In this document: piece by piece, positions 1 through 37,022 of the stretch
How the letters are laid out: every line of letters begins with the position of its first letter
Position numbering within the stretch: the first letter of the stretch is position 1
Source: a virus
IMG/VR virus record: IMGVR_UViG_3300020453_000613
Coordinates: 1-37,022 of that record
Direction: 5' to 3' (one strand)
DNA length: 37,022 nt
The notes under the pieces: model-generated
Database searches by the model: none
Seen by the model: the letters and a program-made list of their open reading frames with translations, nothing else
What the model was told of the DNA's origin: nothing
Made by a program: the position numbers and the translations under genes

Positions 1-25
1 GATTTTTTAAATTAGGTGCAGCCAT
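1..25 (-). CDS. 5' end of a gene beginning MAAPNLKN (partial, runs off window)
   Basis: Only the first eight codons are present, reading MAAPNLKN on the minus strand, and the gene continues beyond base 1. The start is supported by the best Shine-Dalgarno sequence in the window, CGGAG at 34-38, eight bases upstream of the ATG. The preceding gene ends at 48, leaving a 22-base gap. This N-terminus resembles a conserved T4-like cyanophage protein of the structural region, recalled from family knowledge and not provable from eight residues. It does not look like the start of gp17 (large terminase) or gp18 (sheath). The triplet before it, TAAATATAA at 42-50, overlaps the stop of the upstream gene and could be a degenerate late promoter, but that is weak. 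Confidence 0.6.
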
Positions 26-47
26 GTTTTTATCTCCGTAGTTATAT

Positions 48-32679: not shown

Positions 32680-33360
32680 TTAAAGAGGATCTAAAAGATC
32701 ATTAATTTCACTCTTTCTATCCTTAGAGGTCTTCCAGAAATATGCTTCCTGATCACCTAATCCATCCCTATCATAACCATTCTCTACTTGATAATATTCA
32801 GTAGATACCTTGAAGTCAGGGGTTTTGGGTTTTTCTGGTGTCAAACTGTTATCATAGATACGAGTTCTATTGTTTGGATATAGTGCATACTGACCATTGA
32901 CCAATTCAATCAGGTTATGAGACTTATGTTCTGCAGGGTTCTCTGAGGTGGAATAATCAACCACATCAGGGTCTTGATGATAATTATCTAATGTACATAC
33001 ATATGTACCCTCCATAGTGCCATGATCCCTTGTATAGACCTCATAAGTCATGGACCCAATGAATTGTTTCTGAACTGCAACTACCCCATAATCCATACAA
33101 TTCCAGAACTGTAGATTCTGTAAGTTCATATCAGGATCAGGTGTCTTGGGTTCACTTAAAAATGCACTGATAGGTAGTTTATCATACATTGCCCCATATT
33201 CAGGTAGATAGGTTTCAAAATAAAATGCACGCCCTGGAATGGACTTAGCACTCACCCATACACCTTTTTCAAATTCACCCCATCCAGATTGATGATCTGT
33301 AAGGTATTCTTTCCTCACCCATACCTCTACAGAGGGGAGGTTGGTAATTAGACAAGACAT
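32680..33360 (-). CDS. Conserved protein upstream of gp25 (226 aa), function unknown
   Basis: I associate this sequence with a conserved T4-like cyanophage protein but know no function. It opens with SCLITNLPSVEVWVRKEYLT and is rich in Trp, Tyr and acidic residues. Recognisable conserved-looking pieces are VWVSAKSIPGRAFYFETYLP, FWNCMDYGVVAVQKQFIGSM and YEVYTRDHGTMEGTYVCTLD. No membrane segment, signal peptide, nucleotide-binding or catalytic motif is visible. It does not resemble T4 gp53, although the position just before gp25/gp6 makes a baseplate role possible. It is isolated from the upstream small genes by an intrinsic terminator (33398-33421), so it needs its own promoter. TATAATTA at 33386-33393 is the obvious candidate. 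Confidence 0.88.
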   Translation of the reverse strand: MSCLITNLPSVEVWVRKEYLTDHQSGWGEFEKGVWVSAKSIPGRAFYFETYLPEYGAMYDKLPISAFLSEPKTPDPDMNLQNLQFWNCMDYGVVAVQKQFIGSMTYEVYTRDHGTMEGTYVCTLDNYHQDPDVVDYSTSENPAEHKSHNLIELVNGQYALYPNNRTRIYDNSLTPEKPKTPDFKVSTEYYQVENGYDRDGLGDQEAYFWKTSKDRKSEINDLLDPL

Positions 33361-33385
33361 AGAGAACCGAGATTTTCCGCTGATT

Positions 33386-33393
33386 TAATTATA
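33386..33393 (-). promoter_or_regulatory. Candidate promoter TATAATTA before the 226-aa gene
   Basis: On the minus strand TATAATTA differs from the late element TATAAATA at one base and contains a perfect sigma70 -10 (TATAAT). It lies 26 bases before the ATG at 33360, the same distance as the exact late promoter before gp25, and immediately after a terminator, where a new promoter is required. There is no TTGACA-like box at the correct spacing, so a variant late promoter is more likely than a sigma70 promoter. Confidence 0.5.
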
Positions 33394-33397
33394 ACAT

Positions 33398-33421
33398 AAA
33401 AAAAAGGGCATTGCTGCCCTT
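33398..33421 (-). terminator. Intrinsic terminator after the 48-aa gene
   Basis: On the minus strand a perfect 7-bp stem AAGGGCA / TGCCCTT with a GCAA tetraloop is followed directly by a run of eight or more T. It begins nine bases after the stop of the 48-aa gene at 33430. It ends the small-gene region before the late structural genes start. Confidence 0.9.
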
Positions 33422-33429
33422 CTTGTCTA

Positions 33430-33576
33430 TTAACGTCCTTGACCTCTATAACGCTTCTTCTTGTTATTACTGCTGGTTGCAGCATACTTTGTGTGCTGCC
33501 CATGTCCCTGTCTGGTTTTCTTGGGTTGTGATTCAATAAACACTGAACCAAGCAGTGACTTCTTAACTTTTGCCAT
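33430..33576 (-). CDS. Small basic protein (48 aa), cyanophage type
   Basis: The protein begins MAKVKKSLLGSVFIES and ends in an Arg/Lys/Asn-rich tail (SSNNKKKRYRGQGR), with a middle rich in Gly, Gln and His. The strong positive charge and lack of hydrophobic core suggest a disordered nucleic-acid- or rRNA-binding peptide, but that is inference. I recall near-identical short proteins in T4-like cyanophages, where they are unnamed. The start has AAAGGTAA six bases upstream as a possible ribosome binding site, and the gene follows the 57-aa gene after nine bases. A terminator follows. Confidence 0.85.
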   Translation of the reverse strand: MAKVKKSLLGSVFIESQPKKTRQGHGQHTKYAATSSNNKKKRYRGQGR

Positions 33577-33585
33577 AATTTACCT

Positions 33586-33759
33586 TTACTTAAAATTTTG
33601 TGGGAGTGCATGAGCACTTACAACTGTAGCAGAAGGCATTGATGCCTCAAAGATTCTCATTGCCTCTGCTTGATGTGTTGCATCTACTTTCTTGTAATGA
33701 TACTTTCTACCTGTAGCTTTTAATCTATAGGTGACCATGTATGGATATTGTGTGATCAT
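33586..33759 (-). CDS. Small conserved protein (57 aa), function unknown
   Basis: The frame starts MITQYPYMVTYRLKATG and continues with a basic beta segment RKYHYKKVDATHQAEAMRIF and FEASMPSATVVSAHALP. The layout (strand, then a helix containing AEAMRIFEA, then a short strand) looks like a compact beta-alpha-beta fold of the kind seen in many small phage proteins. The start lies one base after the glycosyltransferase-like gene, so translation is probably coupled. The next gene begins nine bases after its stop. Alternative start at the internal Met8 (33738) is possible. No function is known to me. Confidence 0.82.
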   Translation of the reverse strand: MITQYPYMVTYRLKATGRKYHYKKVDATHQAEAMRIFEASMPSATVVSAHALPQNFK

Positions 33760-33760
33760 A

Positions 33761-34558
33761 TCAAATCACCCTAGTCTTCTCATGACCAACACGAATACGT
33801 GGATCACACCAAATCTCATACCCTGCTTCAATAGCATCTAGACAGAATGAGACATCCTCTCCACACATATCCTGTACTGCACCAGACTCAAAGACTTGCA
33901 TCTTAGGTGCAAACCATGGATATGGCATCTTCTTATTACCTTCATCATCAAAGTCTTCAAAGACTCCCTTCTTGATCATCACCCATCCAAATCCTGTGTA
34001 ATCAACAGTAAATGGTTTCTTACGATTCTGAATGCTATCAACCATCTCATGGTTCATGACACCACCATTATTACGGAAGTCATTCTCATCCAACCAGTGT
34101 GCTACAGATGTAGTCTTACCATCTTCAGTAGAATACCAACCAGCAGTGATCTCACGTTCTGTACCATCTTCACTCAGTGACAGATCACACAGTTGCCAGA
34201 ACTTATTAGAGTCAAATACAATGTCACTATCAATCCACAACTGATAGTCATAGTGAAGTTTACCATCCCATGGCACCTGGTTAGGTCCACGCAATACATT
34301 AGCACCCAAACACTTACAACGTGCAAAGTTCACCATAGAAGAGTAATCCTGACTGATCTGGATACTCATTCCATTCTGTACCATGTCAAAGCACAGTTGT
34401 ACAAAGTTCTTCAGGAATGTATATGATACTCCACGTCCAGGCAGACAAAATACAATAGTCTTTCCTTTCATCCTTGCCTTAATGGCATCATAATCCCACT
34501 CAGGTCCTTTCTTCTTTGATGGGGGCGATGATGCCTTTACAGTAAATCCTTTTGCCAT
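33761..34558 (-). CDS. Glycosyltransferase-like protein, GT-A fold (265 aa)
   Basis: After a basic N-terminus (residues 1-30), KTIVFCLPGRGVSYTFLKNF begins a nucleotide-sugar-binding-like beta-alpha unit. A D-x-D-type motif in YDYQLWIDSDIVFDSNKFWQ (D110, D112) would bind the metal and nucleotide-sugar, and the C-terminal GEDVSFCLDAIEAGYEIWCD, then PRIRVGHEK (233-261) matches the 'ED-x-x-FC ... G-x-x-[IV]-W-x-D-P ... GH' ending of GT-A enzymes. The acceptor is unknown: virion protein, DNA base or host envelope. As I recall, relatives are common in marine T4-like phages and annotated hypothetical or glycosyltransferase. A sigma70-like promoter at 34581-34609 lies 16 bases upstream of likely transcription start to ATG. 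Length is compatible with a single GT-A domain. Confidence 0.85.
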   Translation of the reverse strand: MAKGFTVKASSPPSKKKGPEWDYDAIKARMKGKTIVFCLPGRGVSYTFLKNFVQLCFDMVQNGMSIQISQDYSSMVNFARCKCLGANVLRGPNQVPWDGKLHYDYQLWIDSDIVFDSNKFWQLCDLSLSEDGTEREITAGWYSTEDGKTTSVAHWLDENDFRNNGGVMNHEMVDSIQNRKKPFTVDYTGFGWVMIKKGVFEDFDDEGNKKMPYPWFAPKMQVFESGAVQDMCGEDVSFCLDAIEAGYEIWCDPRIRVGHEKTRVI

Positions 34559-34580
34559 GATTGATAATTCACTACACTTC

Positions 34581-34609
34581 AGTTTAGCAGTTTATATAGT
34601 CTCTGTCAA
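34581..34609 (-). promoter_or_regulatory. Sigma70-like promoter before the glycosyltransferase-like gene
   Basis: The minus strand has TTGACA (34604-34609), a 17-base spacer, and TAAACT (34581-34586). The -35 is perfect and the -10 matches four of six. It overlaps the stop codon of the 67-aa gene and would start transcripts about 16 bases before the ATG at 34558, giving a host-RNA-polymerase (early) promoter for the transferase, 57-aa and 48-aa genes up to the terminator at 33398. Confidence 0.6.
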
Positions 34610-34809
34610 TATGAAGACTCTTCTTCAGTTGCTAGGGTTTCCACTACCTCAAAGGACAGATCCTCCTCCTCATAATCAGTCTTCATCAGACCAACCATTG
34701 CCTTCATCTCATTATATCTTGTCTCAAAATCACTCTTTGTTAGGTTGTTATATACACATCTGTCCTTCAAGTATATGTGGTAAAAATTTTCTGGGGAAAT
34801 TTTTTTCAT
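34606..34809 (-). CDS. Small conserved acidic protein (67 aa), function unknown
   Basis: The protein begins MKKISPENFYHIYLKDRCVY, followed by NNLTKSDFETRYNEMKAMVG and an acidic C-terminus with YEEEDLSFEVVETLATEEE. It is predicted mostly helical. I recall closely similar short proteins in T4-like cyanophages (the KISPENFYHIYLKDRC start), without function. It is bracketed by its own control signals: an intrinsic terminator lies about 38 bases upstream (34847-34869), a TATAAT box at 34830-34835, and the next promoter overlaps its stop codon. Confidence 0.85.
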   Translation of the reverse strand: MKKISPENFYHIYLKDRCVYNNLTKSDFETRYNEMKAMVGLMKTDYEEEDLSFEVVETLATEEESSY

Positions 34810-34829
34810 GAAATGGTTTCTGTTACGGA

Positions 34830-34835
34830 ATTATA
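34830..34835 (-). promoter_or_regulatory. Possible -10 box (TATAAT) before the 67-aa gene
   Basis: A perfect TATAAT (minus strand) lies 21 bases before the ATG at 34809. The bases at the -35 position (GCCTCT, part of the terminator stem) do not match TTGACA. Since a terminator sits immediately upstream the gene needs a promoter, but this one would have to be activator-dependent or weak. Confidence 0.35.
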
Positions 34836-34846
34836 TATGGGGGCAT

Positions 34847-34869
34847 AAAAAAAGAGGCATATAAACCTC
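34847..34869 (-). terminator. Intrinsic terminator before the 67-aa gene
   Basis: On the minus strand GAGG-TTTATATG-CCTC is followed by seven T. The stem is short (four G/C-containing pairs plus a possible T-G pair) but the T tract is good. It would end transcripts arriving from the NYETWNVAL-type gene at 35019-35288, across the structured gap described separately. Confidence 0.6.
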
Positions 34870-34897
34870 ATGGGAATATACTTTTGTAGGTTGCCCT

Positions 34898-34960
34898 AGA
34901 CCGGTCTTTTCGTAGGGGGGGGGTTATTTTAATCCTTAGACCCCACTACGCCCTAGGGCG
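34898..34960. other. GC-rich structured stretch in a non-coding gap
   Basis: Between the 67-aa gene and the 89-aa gene (34810-35018, 209 bases) I see no gene. The middle is unusually G/C-dense for this AT-rich window. It has the 10-bp palindrome AGACCGGTCT (34898-34907), a run of nine G (34915-34923), a 12-bp palindrome CGCCCTAGGGCG (34949-34960), and a longer hairpin in which CGTAG-GGGG (from 34911) can pair with CCCC-A-CTACG (34941-34950). Possible roles are an RNA structure in the 3' region of the upstream transcript or a recombination or replication signal. None is demonstrated. Confidence 0.5.
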
Positions 34961-35018
34961 GACATTACATCACGCCCATAATCACTGTCATATTCACAAC
35001 ACTGTGATTCACAAGATG

Positions 35019-35288
35019 TCAGAGTTCACTGAGCATCTCATTCAATTCTACAGTGTTGAGACTATCATCATCCCACTTAACATTGTCAGGGGTTGCAGGA
35101 GAGAACTCCATCAACATGTGGGACAGTGACTTGTATCCATGCTCTGCCCATTCCTGAGCAAGGTGATACAAACCCTCATCATTTTGCAACCAGAGGGCAA
35201 CATTCCAGGTCTCATAATTAGTCCAACCATTGTATGTTTGGTCCATCAGATTTGTCTGGAAAGATGTGGTCATGTGTGATTGAGTCAT
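35019..35288 (-). CDS. NYETWNVAL-type small protein (89 aa)
   Basis: The core YNGWTNYETWNVALWLQNDE followed by GLYHLAQEW is a strongly conserved signature I recall from many phage and some cyanobacterial small proteins of unknown function. The rest is an acidic helical C-terminus with WDDDSLNTVELNEMLSEL. The first ATG (35288) gives a 14-residue leader (MTQSHMTTSFQTNL) that relatives often lack, and Met15 (35246) just before DQTYNGW is an alternative start. No Shine-Dalgarno sequence precedes either. The upstream 90 bases hold the 20-bp repeat also found before the 48-aa membrane-peptide gene and the inverted TGTGCCCCA pair, so its expression is probably controlled through those elements. Confidence 0.88.
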   Translation of the reverse strand: MTQSHMTTSFQTNLMDQTYNGWTNYETWNVALWLQNDEGLYHLAQEWAEHGYKSLSHMLMEFSPATPDNVKWDDDSLNTVELNEMLSEL

Positions 35289-35304
35289 GCTTACACTGTA
35301 GATC

Positions 35305-35324
35305 CACTTTAGAGGTAACTAACA
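35305..35324 (-). repeat. 20-bp direct repeat, copy 1 (before the 89-aa gene)
   Basis: The plus strand reads CACTTTAGAGGTAACTAACA, identical to 36947-36966. On the transcribed (minus) strand it is a leader sequence containing GTTAGTTACCTCTAAAG and ends 16 bases before the ATG at 35288. In both copies it is the last element before a start codon. Confidence 0.85.
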
Positions 35325-35334
35325 ATGTTTTTTG

Positions 35335-35370
35335 TATGTGCCCCACATAAACAACATTATTGGGGCACAT
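35335..35370. repeat. Inverted TGTGCCCCA pair (10-bp perfect arms)
   Basis: ATGTGCCCCA (35336-35345) and TGGGGCACAT (35361-35370) form a perfect 10-bp stem with a 15-base loop. The left arm is part of a complete 15-bp palindromic element TATGTGCCCCACATA (35335-35349). Outside the stem, GTTAGT (minus-strand orientation, in the 20-bp repeat) and ACTAAC (around 35371-35377) could extend the pairing. There is no T tract, so it is not a standard intrinsic terminator. It lies between the 30-aa ORF and the 89-aa gene. Confidence 0.85.
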
Positions 35371-35379
35371 GAGTTAGTA

Positions 35380-35472
35380 TCAATAAAGTGCCACAACTGC
35401 ATCCAAGAGTAACAGCAACTCAGTGCCATTCTCAGCATAGTCCAGAGCATCAAAGCACTGTGTGATTGACAT
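35380..35472 (-). CDS. Possible micro-protein (30 aa)
   Basis: The frame starts MSITQCFDALDYAENG and ends in a leucine-rich TELLLLLDAVVALY, and it stops just before the ACTAAC/TGTGCCCC element. A polar helix followed by 'NG-x-[ED]-LL-x-LLDA' is a pattern I recall in very short cyanophage ORFs. It fills most of an otherwise empty gap and lies about 110 bases downstream of a consensus sigma70 promoter (35591-35619). There is no clear ribosome binding site. Length alone makes chance a real possibility. Confidence 0.45.
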   Translation of the reverse strand: MSITQCFDALDYAENGTELLLLLDAVVALY

Positions 35473-35590
35473 AATGAAAGTGTGATTTAGTGGGTGTAAT
35501 ACTGGGTCTTACACTGTTCATGAGTCTCCCCATGATATGTTGCCCAGTGTGTTAGTTAGTGATAGTCTTATATGTGTCTTTCACCCTTAC

Positions 35591-35619
35591 AATATAGGTC
35601 ATTTCAGTGTATCTGTCAA
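35591..35619 (-). promoter_or_regulatory. Consensus sigma70 (early) promoter
   Basis: On the minus strand TTGACA (35614-35619), a 17-base spacer and TATATT (35591-35596): perfect -35, five of six at -10, ideal spacing. Transcription would start near 35585 and run toward the 30-aa ORF and the 89-aa gene, giving a leader of about 110 bases to the first ATG at 35472. It is the best host-type promoter I found in the window. Confidence 0.75.
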
Positions 35620-35732
35620 GGGACAATGTGCAGTTCTCAGAGTGTCTGTGAGGGGTTGACATGTGTGAGGTTTGATGATAGACTGCACGCTTAGAACACA
35701 AGACCCAGGTACATTTATTCTCACCTTTATTC

Positions 35733-35801
35733 CATGTGCCCCATATACATCTATGTGCCCCAGATGTGTGCCCCACACTAACATTTTATGTGCCCCACAT
35801 A
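35733..35801. repeat. Cluster of four 15-bp palindromic repeats (cluster 1)
   Basis: Plus-strand copies are CATGTGCCCCATATA (35733-35747), TATGTGCCCCAGATG (35752-35766), TGTGTGCCCCACACT (35765-35779) and TATGTGCCCCACATA (35787-35801). The consensus is an inverted repeat, TATGTG-CCC-CACATA. Start-to-start spacings are 19, 13 and 22 bases, and the 13 and 22 steps are echoed in cluster 2 (13 and 23). The last copy is followed by GTCA and ends two bases from the 60-aa gene's stop codon. Confidence 0.85.
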
Positions 35802-35802
35802 G

Positions 35803-35985
35803 TCATGTTATGTTAGTCAAACTTTCCTCCAATCTTCCTTGCATTTGTTCTAGAAAGATGGTCCCTTTTGCCTCTGCAATCCTCTCATACTCATCCAATA
35901 ATAGGATGATATGGTGATAACATGATTCAGGGATTCTAGTCTTCACAGTCTTACCTAGATTAGGAAACTTAGAGGAGAAGGGCAT
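35803..35985 (-). CDS. Small protein with an RIPESCY helix motif (60 aa)
   Basis: I place the start at the ATG at 35985, giving MPFSSKFPNLGKTVKTRIPE then SCYHHIILLLDEYERIAEAK. A longer frame from 36036 exists, but its extra 17 residues (MGQMSYTMWSTCVGHIV) are a translation of the operator-like repeats and contain the promoter -10 (36016-36021), so it would not be on the mRNA. The 'V-[KR]-x-RIPES ... I-x-x-LLDEYE' arrangement, a short strand followed by an amphipathic helix, is reminiscent of small cyanobacterial/phage proteins and of ribbon-helix-helix regulators, but no second helix with a clear DNA-binding signature is visible. A repressor or autoregulator of its own repeat-bearing promoter is a hypothesis only. 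Confidence 0.72.
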   Translation of the reverse strand: MPFSSKFPNLGKTVKTRIPESCYHHIILLLDEYERIAEAKGTIFLEQMQGRLEESLTNIT

Positions 35986-35988
35986 TAC

Positions 35989-36039
35989 TATGTGACCCAC
36001 ACATGTGCTCCACATAGTATAACTCATTTGCCCCACATA
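35989..36039. repeat. Cluster of three 15-bp palindromic repeats (cluster 2) over a promoter
   Basis: Plus-strand copies are TATGTGACCCACACA (35989-36003), CATGTGCTCCACATA (36002-36016) and CATTTGCCCCACATA (36025-36039). The third lies inside the spacer of the promoter at 36016-36044, the second abuts its -10 box, and the first ends three bases from the ATG of the 60-aa gene. This is the geometry of operators that a repressor would use. Confidence 0.8.
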
Positions 36040-36044
36040 GTCAA
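36016..36044 (-). promoter_or_regulatory. Sigma70 promoter with repeats in spacer and leader
   Basis: Minus strand: TTGACT (36039-36044), a 17-base spacer, TATACT (36016-36021). Each box is five of six. It starts just after the 72-aa gene's stop and would begin transcripts near 36009, about 24 bases before the 60-aa start codon. Cluster 2 repeats occupy the spacer and the leader. Confidence 0.68.
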
Positions 36045-36051
36045 CTAGGTG

Positions 36052-36270
36052 TTAGTTCCACCCAGTAGATTCATCTGGTTCAGTTACATCATCAAGCAAC
36101 TCTGGATAATACTCTTTCACCTCTTCTTCCATCTCTGCGTAAGAATAATCATCATAAGATTTGGTCATGTAATCATGAAGAATAGCAAGACAATCATCCA
36201 AGTTTAGACCATCAATAACCCTGGTAACATATGCTTCAATGAGTGATTCTTTGTTCATAGTCATTTGCAT
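36052..36270 (-). CDS. Small acidic protein (72 aa), paralogue of the next upstream gene
   Basis: The conserved core AYVTRVIDGLNLDDCLAILH followed by DYMTKSYDDYSYAEMEEEVK and EYYPELLDD matches the 84-aa neighbour position by position (see finding). I recall such short acidic helical proteins in T4-like cyanophages as a family of unknown function, with the pattern 'V-x-D-x-[MLI]-[DN]-[ML]-[DE] ... Y-x-x-[YL] ... E-[IV]-x-[ED]-[YF]'. Three ATGs near the start (36270, 36264, 36258) are all possible. MNKESLIEA at 36258 fits the family best but no ribosome binding site decides it. It follows the 84-aa gene after eight bases. Confidence 0.85.
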   Translation of the reverse strand: MQMTMNKESLIEAYVTRVIDGLNLDDCLAILHDYMTKSYDDYSYAEMEEEVKEYYPELLDDVTEPDESTGWN

Positions 36271-36278
36271 GATGAGTG

Positions 36279-36533
36279 TTAGATAGTGGTTCCTGCATAG
36301 TTTATATTTTTGGCGCTAACCTCTCTCAGTAGGTTATTAAATTCCTCTCCCTTATCATTGAAGTAATCTGTTATTTCAAACTGCATATCTTTCTGATCAT
36401 AATTATCATATGATCCCATAAGTTGATCAAAGACAATCTCACATAGAGTATCAAGATCCATAGAATCTACTACTCTTTCACAGAAGATTTCTTTGAGTTT
36501 CTGTGTTTGTTCTTTAGAAAGATTCATTTCCAT
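36279..36533 (-). CDS. Small acidic protein (84 aa), tandem paralogue
   Basis: This protein begins MEMNLSKEQTQKLKEIFCER and has the core RVVDSMDLDTLCEIVFDQLM then GSYDNYDQKDMQFEITDYF, a clear homologue of the 72-aa product downstream. It carries a 15-residue C-terminal extension (REVSAKNINYAGTTI). No DNA-binding, metal-binding or enzymatic motif is visible, and the acidic helical nature suggests protein-protein contact with a host or phage target. The start overlaps the end of the 89-aa basic gene by ten bases (ATGGAAATGA), so the two are translationally coupled. Confidence 0.87.
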   Translation of the reverse strand: MEMNLSKEQTQKLKEIFCERVVDSMDLDTLCEIVFDQLMGSYDNYDQKDMQFEITDYFNDKGEEFNNLLREVSAKNINYAGTTI

Positions 36534-36793
36534 TGGTTTGTTTTGATGAGATACTTTTTGATTTCAAATGTGAGAAACTTTTTTAGTTTTGGGTCATCTG
36601 TTACATCAAGGGCATCATACAATCTGTTAATATAGTCCTTCTCTCTTGTCACCTTAATTGCACCTTTGGGTTTATCAGATAACCCTAGGTTTGTGTTAGC
36701 ACCTGCCTTAGTCTTGGGTCTTCCAAAGTTACCAGTGATGTTGCCTGTGGTTCTTAGTTTGGTTTTGATTTTTGAGAGATTGGATGATGTCAT
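36524..36793 (-). CDS. Small basic protein (89 aa), function unknown
   Basis: The first half (SNLSKIKTKLRTTGNITGNF, RPKTKAGANTNLGL) is basic, rich in Gly, Thr, Asn and Lys, and probably disordered. The second half (VTREKDYINRLYDALDVTDD, PKLKKFLTFEIKKYLI) is helical. It is overlapped by the membrane-peptide gene upstream (ATGA) and by the 84-aa gene downstream, forming a tightly coupled trio. The mixture of a basic tail and helical domain would suit RNA or DNA binding, but I recognise no family. Confidence 0.78.
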   Translation of the reverse strand: MTSSNLSKIKTKLRTTGNITGNFGRPKTKAGANTNLGLSDKPKGAIKVTREKDYINRLYDALDVTDDPKLKKFLTFEIKKYLIKTNQWK

Positions 36794-36936
36794 TTGATCA
36801 CATTTGAAGGGGGATTCATGAGTGCCTCTAGGGCAGCATTTCTCTCTTGAATAAGATCAACTGTTTTGGAGTTCATAACAGTGATGAAGATGTTTGCCCC
36901 AATGACAGTGACAACTCCCAGAAGAATGATTCTCAT
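36790..36936 (-). CDS. Single-helix membrane peptide (48 aa)
   Basis: The N-terminus MRIILLGVVTVIGANIFITV (residues 1-20) is a strongly hydrophobic segment of the right length to span or anchor in a membrane. It is followed by a polar helix NSKTVDLIQERNAALEALMN and a short Pro-containing tail. It has no cleavage site typical of a signal peptide, so it is probably an N-in or N-out anchored peptide. The stop overlaps the next start (ATGA). The 20-bp repeat also found before the 89-aa NYETWNVAL gene ends ten bases upstream of the start. Function unknown. Membrane peptides of this type can act in host takeover or lysis control, which is speculation here. Confidence 0.72.
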   Translation of the reverse strand: MRIILLGVVTVIGANIFITVMNSKTVDLIQERNAALEALMNPPSNVIK

Positions 36937-36946
36937 ACTACTGTCT

Positions 36947-36966
36947 CACTTTAGAGGTAACTAACA
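36947..36966 (-). repeat. 20-bp direct repeat, copy 2 (before the membrane-peptide gene)
   Basis: Identical in all 20 bases to 35305-35324. It lies ten bases upstream of the ATG at 36936. The remaining sequence up to the window end (36967-37022) shows no gene and no clear promoter. Confidence 0.85.
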
Positions 36967-37022
36967 CTATTCATCAGCACAATTTGTTTTCATTGTAGAA
37001 GGGAAATCTGTTGATGTAAAGT

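Follow-up and report, generated by a model that had tools for sequence, protein, structure and literature searches.

The DNA analysed here, a stretch of 37,022 nucleotides from the IMG/VR virus record IMGVR_UViG_3300020453_000613 (hereafter the window), comes from a T4-like cyanophage, of which it covers only a part. Its long minus-strand open reading frames (ORFs) follow the same order as the baseplate and neck genes of relatives and are preceded by small genes; over positions 33000-37022, the closest named phages by DNA are S-SM2, Bellamy, S-SCSM1 and SynMITS9220M01. A 20-bp sequence, CACTTTAGAGGTAACTAACA on the plus strand and TGTTAGTTACCTCTAAAGTG on the minus (coding) strand, occurs without mismatch at 35305-35324 and 36947-36966, each time before one of two unrelated small genes. 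This 20-mer is the 5′ part of an element of about 35 bp, and in this report we describe the element, its distribution among cyanophages and its probable role as a phage-specific promoter.

The repeat in the window

The 3′ end of the 20-mer lies 10 bases from ATG 36936 and 16 bases from ATG 35288, which confirms both the exact repeat and the spacing of 10-16 bases described in a first-pass annotation of this DNA. Dinucleotide shuffles contain on average 0.02 copies, two copies being reached in 0/100, and the window holds no third site with up to three mismatches. The same annotation treated the 20-mer as a leader standing in front of the start codon; the repeat is as described, but the conserved unit extends over 35 bp, and ATG 36936 lies within it, at element position 30. 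A position weight matrix (PWM) scan of the window finds only the two copies of Table 1 above threshold. As the first position of the PHROG 2517 profile aligns with the first residue of the 48-aa membrane peptide, ATG 36936 looks like the true start of that gene. For the 89-aa protein, the DUF7249 alignment begins at residue 15 and that with PHROG 871 at residue 8, so its start may lie downstream of 35288. A stem-loop ends 11 nt upstream of copy 2.

Table 1. Element copies, their parts and adjoining features in the window, with the general element layout (element position 0 is the first T of TGTTAGTT on the coding strand)
Feature	Position	Strand	Remarks
Element copy 1	36932-36966	minus	exact 20-mer; degenerate 3′ core; PWM score 35.9
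Copy 1, box	36954-36965	minus	
Copy 1, TAAAGTG	36947-36953	minus	
Copy 1, AGAC-AGTAGT-ATGAG	36932-36946	minus	
48-aa membrane-peptide gene	36790-36936	minus	PHROG 2517, E 3.1e-9, residues 1-35 to profile 1-35
Element copy 2	35290-35324	minus	exact 20-mer; PWM score 48.3
Copy 2, box	35312-35323	minus	
Copy 2, TAAAGTG	35305-35311	minus	
Copy 2, GATC-TACAGT-GTAAG	35290-35304	minus	
89-aa DUF7249 gene, 3′ of copy 2	35019-35288	minus	PF23907, E 1.2e-18, residues 15-89
Stem-loop ATGTGCCCC...GGGGCACAT, no T-run	35336-35370	minus	-19.4 kcal/mol, z -3.46
General element, box	element 1-12		
General element, TAAAGTG	element 13-19		
General element, NNCC	element 20-23		
General element, TATAGT	element 24-29		
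General element, RTRAG	element 30-34		

Distribution of the element

Further copies before start codons, for which the first-pass annotation had suggested looking, are numerous, the opposite of the 'no other copies' outcome that it had named as speaking against a regulatory site. The 20-mer is found exactly in 36 IMG/VR contig stretches which, together with the window, hold 169 sites within four mismatches. In an alignment of 124 unique sites, conservation reaches position 34, giving TGTTAGTTACCTCTAAAGTG-gaCC-TATAGT-RTRAG, and the coding-strand layout can be written as [12-nt box]-TAAAGTG-NNCC-TATAGTRTRAG.

In S-SM2, SynMITS9220M01, P-TIM68 and IMG/VR contigs, about 9-14 copies, all on one strand, are distributed over the small-gene array upstream of gp25. 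The 12 copies of SynMITS9220M01 share one strand and lie at 36.3-50.0 kb of its 190 kb, mostly with TTACTCACC where others have TTAGTTACC; S-SM2 carries a AAGGGGGGTCG version in 11 places; in P-TIM68, a scan of 36 kb gives 13 copies on the plus strand, with TTAGTTACC kept and the core altered. The record of AG-345-O18, a fragment, holds an array of the GGGGGGTCG type, and two IMG/VR contigs have 14 (G020) and 10 copies (G021). S-B05 looked element-free in a first repeat scan; the scan for the core, which led to its later addition to the element-bearing phages, shows four copies scattered over two places, with the box ATTACTCACCTC. Controls with the reverse strand and the backwards pattern have 0 matches in the stricter scan, and the looser one gives 0-1 and 0-2 in each genome.

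The element is not universal among these phages: none of Bellamy, Syn9, P-SSM4, P-SSM2, S-PM2, S-SKS1, S-8S55, Sf-CH5 and S-SCSM1 has more than a single loose match, which does not exceed the backwards controls. A bacterial genome collection contains 12 scattered single matches, two of them in the cyanobacterium Komarekiella and none in Synechococcus or Prochlorococcus, a number not above chance, as about 30 are expected in 257 billion bases by our own estimate.

A constant core and a phage-private box

A scan for the core with the box left free finds at least 120 stretches, and the counts that follow are among the matches listed. Strict core sites number 173 in 126 loci and carry many different boxes; with up to two core mismatches, there are 466 sites in 137/142 loci, 97 of which have two or more. 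In this set, where 36 loci were chosen by the TTAGTTACCTC box itself, the core is the selection criterion and some loci come from near-identical viruses (G020 and G024, by box and flanks, are not independent), the 12-nt box differs on average by 6.6% within a locus versus 52.9% between loci, and 300 permutations of the box labels never fall below 49.7%. The corresponding within- and between-locus values are 11.2% and 16.3% for the core, 61.5% and 65.2% for the flank after the core, and 47.4% and 62.8% for the flank before the box. C9 is invariant among 384 unique sites, though it was not a selection criterion; A14-A16 and G19 are invariant too, yet lie inside the searched core.

A feature of the window copies noted by the first-pass annotation, an ACCTC resembling the 3′ end of 16S rRNA, does not generalize, the box being replaced elsewhere by GGGGGGTCGCC, ACTTGGATCCTC, ACTGAGCCACT and others. 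Nor does the box track relatedness of the sigma factor gp55: the gp55 of SynMITS9220M01 is nearest to those of G021 (91%) and Bellamy (89%), followed by S-SM2 (77%) and P-TIM68 (74%), whereas its nearest boxes belong to the window and P-TIM68; Bellamy lacks the element.

Start codons inside the element

Positions 30-32 mostly read R-T-R, and at 285 sites with non-redundant downstream sequence they are ATG (93), GTA (122), ATA (36) or GTG (16). The frame starting at position 30 is open for at least 40 codons at 78/93 ATG sites versus 60/192 others (Fisher p=1.3e-17), and earlier counts agree (39/39 versus 55/107 with a 25-codon limit; 21/23 versus 30/98 with a 40-codon limit). Likewise, the next ATG-started gene is in the position-30 frame at 67/84 ATG sites, compared with 42/119 for GTA, 11/35 for ATA and 6/15 for GTG, shares near the one-third expected by chance. 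Where no ATG is embedded, the next ATG-started gene begins at positions 35-148 within the stretch searched; overall, 25/269 of the next start codons are beyond position 100.

Ribosomes thus seem to read the ATG at positions 30-32. Since this ATG is tied to an open frame and the PHROG 2517 profile starts at 36936, the mRNA should contain positions 30-32 and begin at or before position 30. An assignment that fits is TAAA[GCT][TC] at positions 13-18 as the -10 sequence, with a start at about 24-29. Taking TATAGT as the -10 would move the start to around position 36, and was rejected because the embedded start codons would then lie upstream of the transcript.

As an observation on annotation, a gene of the MKNLHLEHPED type in P-TIM68 (KM359505, about 48290-48424) is annotated as starting beyond the N-terminus that its relatives share, and the element marks an earlier start.

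A candidate phage-specific promoter

Computation reveals an oriented, repeated array whose units combine a constant core, a phage-private box and a triplet that behaves as if read by ribosomes. In form, a phage-private promoter is well supported by these sequence patterns; promoter action is what they make probable, and a translational role seems less likely. The 20-bp repeat of the window would accordingly be the specificity box and part of the core of such a promoter. A factor that the phage produces or brings with it would bind the box and recruit RNA polymerase to the constant core, with TAAA[GCT][TC] in the place of the -10 and transcription beginning within TATAGT. Some messages would start a few bases before an embedded ATG, and others would have a leader of about 10-120 nt. 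The factor would be expected to diverge together with the box.

The timing would be early or middle. The T4-type late promoter NATAAATA occurs within 80 nt upstream of 0/27 element-bearing starts, and [AC]TAAATA is present in 53/53 gp25 controls. Nor does a sigma70-type early promoter generally accompany the element: in three phages, only 1/27 element starts has, in the 120 nt upstream, a strong site (TTGACA-N16-18-TATAAT, with 10 or more of the 12 bases matching), and canonical sigma70 sites stand before other genes in these regions. Among all 76 gene starts in the small-gene regions of these phages, the element occurs alone at 26 and a strong sigma70 site alone at 7; one start has both and 42 have neither.

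Several observations weigh against a promoter. The choice of the -10 is ambiguous, TATAGT being closer to the classical sequence than TAAAGT, and 15/93 embedded ATGs lack a 40-codon open frame. In the window, the copy at 36947 has a degenerate core, and both copies have a 10-of-12 sigma70-like match upstream, 26 and 32 nt away, in a stretch where 16 such matches are found and shuffles give 8.6. The small overlap between element and sigma70 sites is descriptive and not significant, more than half of the starts having neither. A test for hairpins at the RNA 5′ end, with 7-mer arms from position 28, gives 5/121 against a mean of 1.1 and a maximum of 5 in 200 permutations, a weak argument as the excess is alike at positions 18-19. 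A factor acting on RNA could equally yield private boxes, and no box-reading factor was identified among MotA, a T7-like polymerase, a second gp55 and co-occurring families.

Alternative explanations

The first-pass annotation proposed a shared translational regulator site. A shared regulatory site before unrelated genes is strongly supported by the 36 IMG/VR stretches and the arrays in several phages; it is the translational part that is not the best-supported account. In its most general form, the element would be an operator or processing site in RNA, in the 5′ leader or between cistrons, at which a phage protein or a nuclease acts to control each gene. The RNA should indeed include at least positions 30-32, start codons are often embedded in the element, and in many cases a stop codon lies immediately before it; the sigma70-like matches 26-32 nt upstream of both window copies and the regA gene annotated in SynMITS9220M01 also agree with it. 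Against it stands the lack of RNA structure: 121 non-redundant copies fold no better than shuffles (mean z 0.04), and a structured RNA element was rejected on these grounds. The start codon, moreover, has no fixed place, being at position 30 in some copies and within 35-148 in others; in P-TIM68, an AAGGA and an ATG of their own stand beyond several of the copies; and only 1/27 element starts in three phages has a strong sigma70 site in the 120 nt upstream. In one contig (L030), a hairpin and T-run resembling a terminator, seen by eye, lie directly upstream of a copy and end about 33 nt before it. We consider an RNA-level site unlikely.

A second possibility is a mobile cassette or recombination sequence, similar to the PeSL type, in which the repeat is kept mainly for the shuffling of small genes by homologous recombination and any promoter role is secondary. 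The location in a variable small-gene region, the similar elements before unrelated genes and the scattered copies of S-B05 are in line with this, and the mixed box types of four contigs (L010, L210, L231 and L196) are as recombination would give. The terminator half is generally missing, however. Hairpins with z<-2.5 occur upstream of 12/119 copies and in 12/116 far-upstream controls, which is no enrichment, and a strict terminator search for perfect stems finds 0/121, without picking up the imperfect L030 terminator. An upstream stem-loop is not a general companion of the element, which is therefore not a PeSL cassette. Recombination alone also leaves the tie between ATG and reading frame and the fixed core unexplained, and as the main function it is highly improbable.

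Finally, a repressor or stoperator-like site, at which a phage-specific protein on the box blocks transcription or superinfecting phages, is hardly credible: the single orientation, intergenic place, uniformity within a genome and difference between relatives follow the pattern of orientation, place and uniformity of the stoperators of cluster A mycobacteriophages, but a constant 22-nt core (TAAAGTG, TATAGTRTRAG) and a tie to start codons are not expected of a pure roadblock, and T4-like cyanophages are generally known as lytic.

Search for the box-reading factor

If the element is a promoter, the phages should encode or deliver a protein that reads the box. MotA (PF09114) is found in 0/7 element-bearing records (S-SM2, SynMITS9220M01, P-TIM68, AG-345-O18, S-B05, G020 and G021; T4 control, E 3.2e-63), and in 0/8 cyanophages in a further search run without a positive control. 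The T7-like RNA polymerase family PF00940 (RNA_pol) likewise gives 0/7 in the same records, T4 also being 0 (P-SSP7 control, E 2.7e-69), and 0/13 in a further search without a positive control. A second gp55 was not seen, 8/8 genomes having one match each; in a later search gp55 was not found in G020, a contig that may lack a segment.

When the proteins of SynMITS9220M01 were compared with element-bearing and element-free genomes, two fitted. PHROG 21741 fails elsewhere and was rejected as regulator, being also present in P-SSM2 and S-SCSM2R, whose scanned array regions have no such repeat. Two other candidates were discarded: the SynMITS_43833 family, with the best box covariation (r=0.69, n=16), has no relative in S-SM2 or P-TIM68 and one in the element-free S-8S55, and a metallopeptidase-like 138-aa protein is found in 30 records including element-free phages. 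The former gene (SynMITS9220M01 43833-44471, L041) belongs to a 212-aa family with no Pfam or PHROG match, scattered among phages including S-8S55, and looks like a mobile gene.

A basic protein of about 200 aa (SynMITS9220M01 40815-41420 and relatives; pI 10.6, 27.9% K+R), with no Pfam or PHROG family, is a lead only and not an identification of the factor. It is present in 10/10 element-bearing genomes or large fragments (SynMITS9220M01, S-SM2, P-TIM68, AG-345-O18, S-B05 and G020-G024) and in 0/6 element-free genomes (Bellamy, Syn9, S-8S55, Sf-CH5, P-SSM4 and S-PM2). In a collection of 50,697 phage records it matches 10: element phages, the S-B05 relatives RN05-S and RB11-B, both outside the element scan, and AG-345-E15, in which two contigs show no array in repeat scans. 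The element is found in 58/80 loci with the basic protein, and missing from 22/80, versus 28/80 loci with the A2 control gene, an uneven comparison as contig ends differ. The gene lies inside the array, and [AC]TAAATA stands upstream in 65/80 distinct leaders, approaching the 53/53 of the late gene gp25; other array families mostly have none or one, the exceptions being two near the array end, 49718 (32/72) and 50670 (14/61), and SSM2_45268 (6/16). The protein covaries weakly with the box: r is 0.32 and 0.31 (n<=90), higher than the -0.01 to 0.20 of all other families with n>=60 and lower than in several with n of 16-48, and linkage and descent confound the comparison. The AlphaFold model is mostly of low confidence (mean pLDDT 66.6, pTM 0.29), with only the C-terminal helices well predicted, and shows no recognizable DNA-binding fold as judged from secondary structure only, no fold search having been made. 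The MKTFxQF start of the protein resembles the capsid-targeting sequences of T4 internal proteins. A further-reaching proposal is that each of these cyanophages runs a private promoter code with near-leaderless messages, read by a fast-changing, virion-delivered factor that would be this late-promoter protein or part of it; we hold this to be distinctly unlikely.

Comparison with known systems

In T4 middle promoters, the MotA box stands in the place of the -35. The element resembles them in that a box for a phage factor replaces the -35 hexamer ahead of a -10-like core, before many non-structural genes. It differs in that no MotA relative was found in the seven records, the box adjoins the core and varies between phages, and the core is long and constant, with a start that would lie inside TATAGT. 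The promoters of the T7 family (T7, T3, K11, SP6) have an upstream recognition stretch that is uniform within a phage and different between phages, and a constant core resembling CACTATAG, the same combination as here; in contrast, PF00940 is lacking in the records tested, and conservation of the element reaches to about -27 rather than -17.

The PeSL promoter-terminator cassettes of T4-like phages were reportedly described by Arbiol in 2010 and Comeau in 2014. They too are short regulatory units repeated before small genes in hyperplastic regions, according to PMC4503421, and differ by the stem-loop half that the element generally lacks. According to PMC2984593, a putative middle promoter, proposed as a class that is neither sigma70 nor late in T4-like cyanophages, is seen in P-SSM4 and Syn9 and not in P-SSM2, S-PM2 or S-RSM4; the cyanomyoviruses have no alt, modA or modB and no motA or asi homologues; and their early and middle control is described as unclear. 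The element is a different one, not being found in Syn9 (one loose match; controls 2) or P-SSM4 (no loose match; controls 0). In PMC3037559, the sites searched for include those of sigma70, late, Pho and NtcA type. The literature searches did not show the element, which may have been described before in the Syn9 transcriptome, Weigele 2007 or the PeSL papers.

Other repeats and genes of the small-gene regions

Repeats of other kinds occur in further cyanophages. A different leader repeat, TTTTC[AG]TGTATT...AAGAGTCAAAGG, stands right before start codons in Syn9 near 51 kb and in Bellamy (L040, upstream of 1726 and 2739), and is possibly the middle promoter reported for Syn9. The small-gene regions of P-SSM2 (52-72 kb; L136, L137) and AG-345-F15 (L141) contain palindromic repeats, TGTGCCA...TGGCACACA and GACCCCTGTGAAGGGGT. 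In the window, eight near-copies of ATGTGGGGCACAT (up to two mismatches) lie between small genes at 35336-36038, a number reached in 0/100 shuffles, and one of them folds into a strong hairpin. Two adjacent paralogues of DUF7326 (PF24012) occupy 36279-36533 and 36052-36270.

Significance

For some T4-like cyanophages, a group that lacks MotA, Asi and Alt, the array defines a candidate promoter class precisely enough to be tested, and may help to account for gene activation without these regulators; exchanging the box from phage to phage provides a route to finding the factor. The start positions given by the element would also correct some annotated start codons. If the promoter reading is true, transcription would be orthogonal between co-infecting phages, and some of their mRNAs would be nearly leaderless. 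Should the factor in addition be carried in the virion, a phage would come equipped to use its own small-gene promoters but not those of a competitor.

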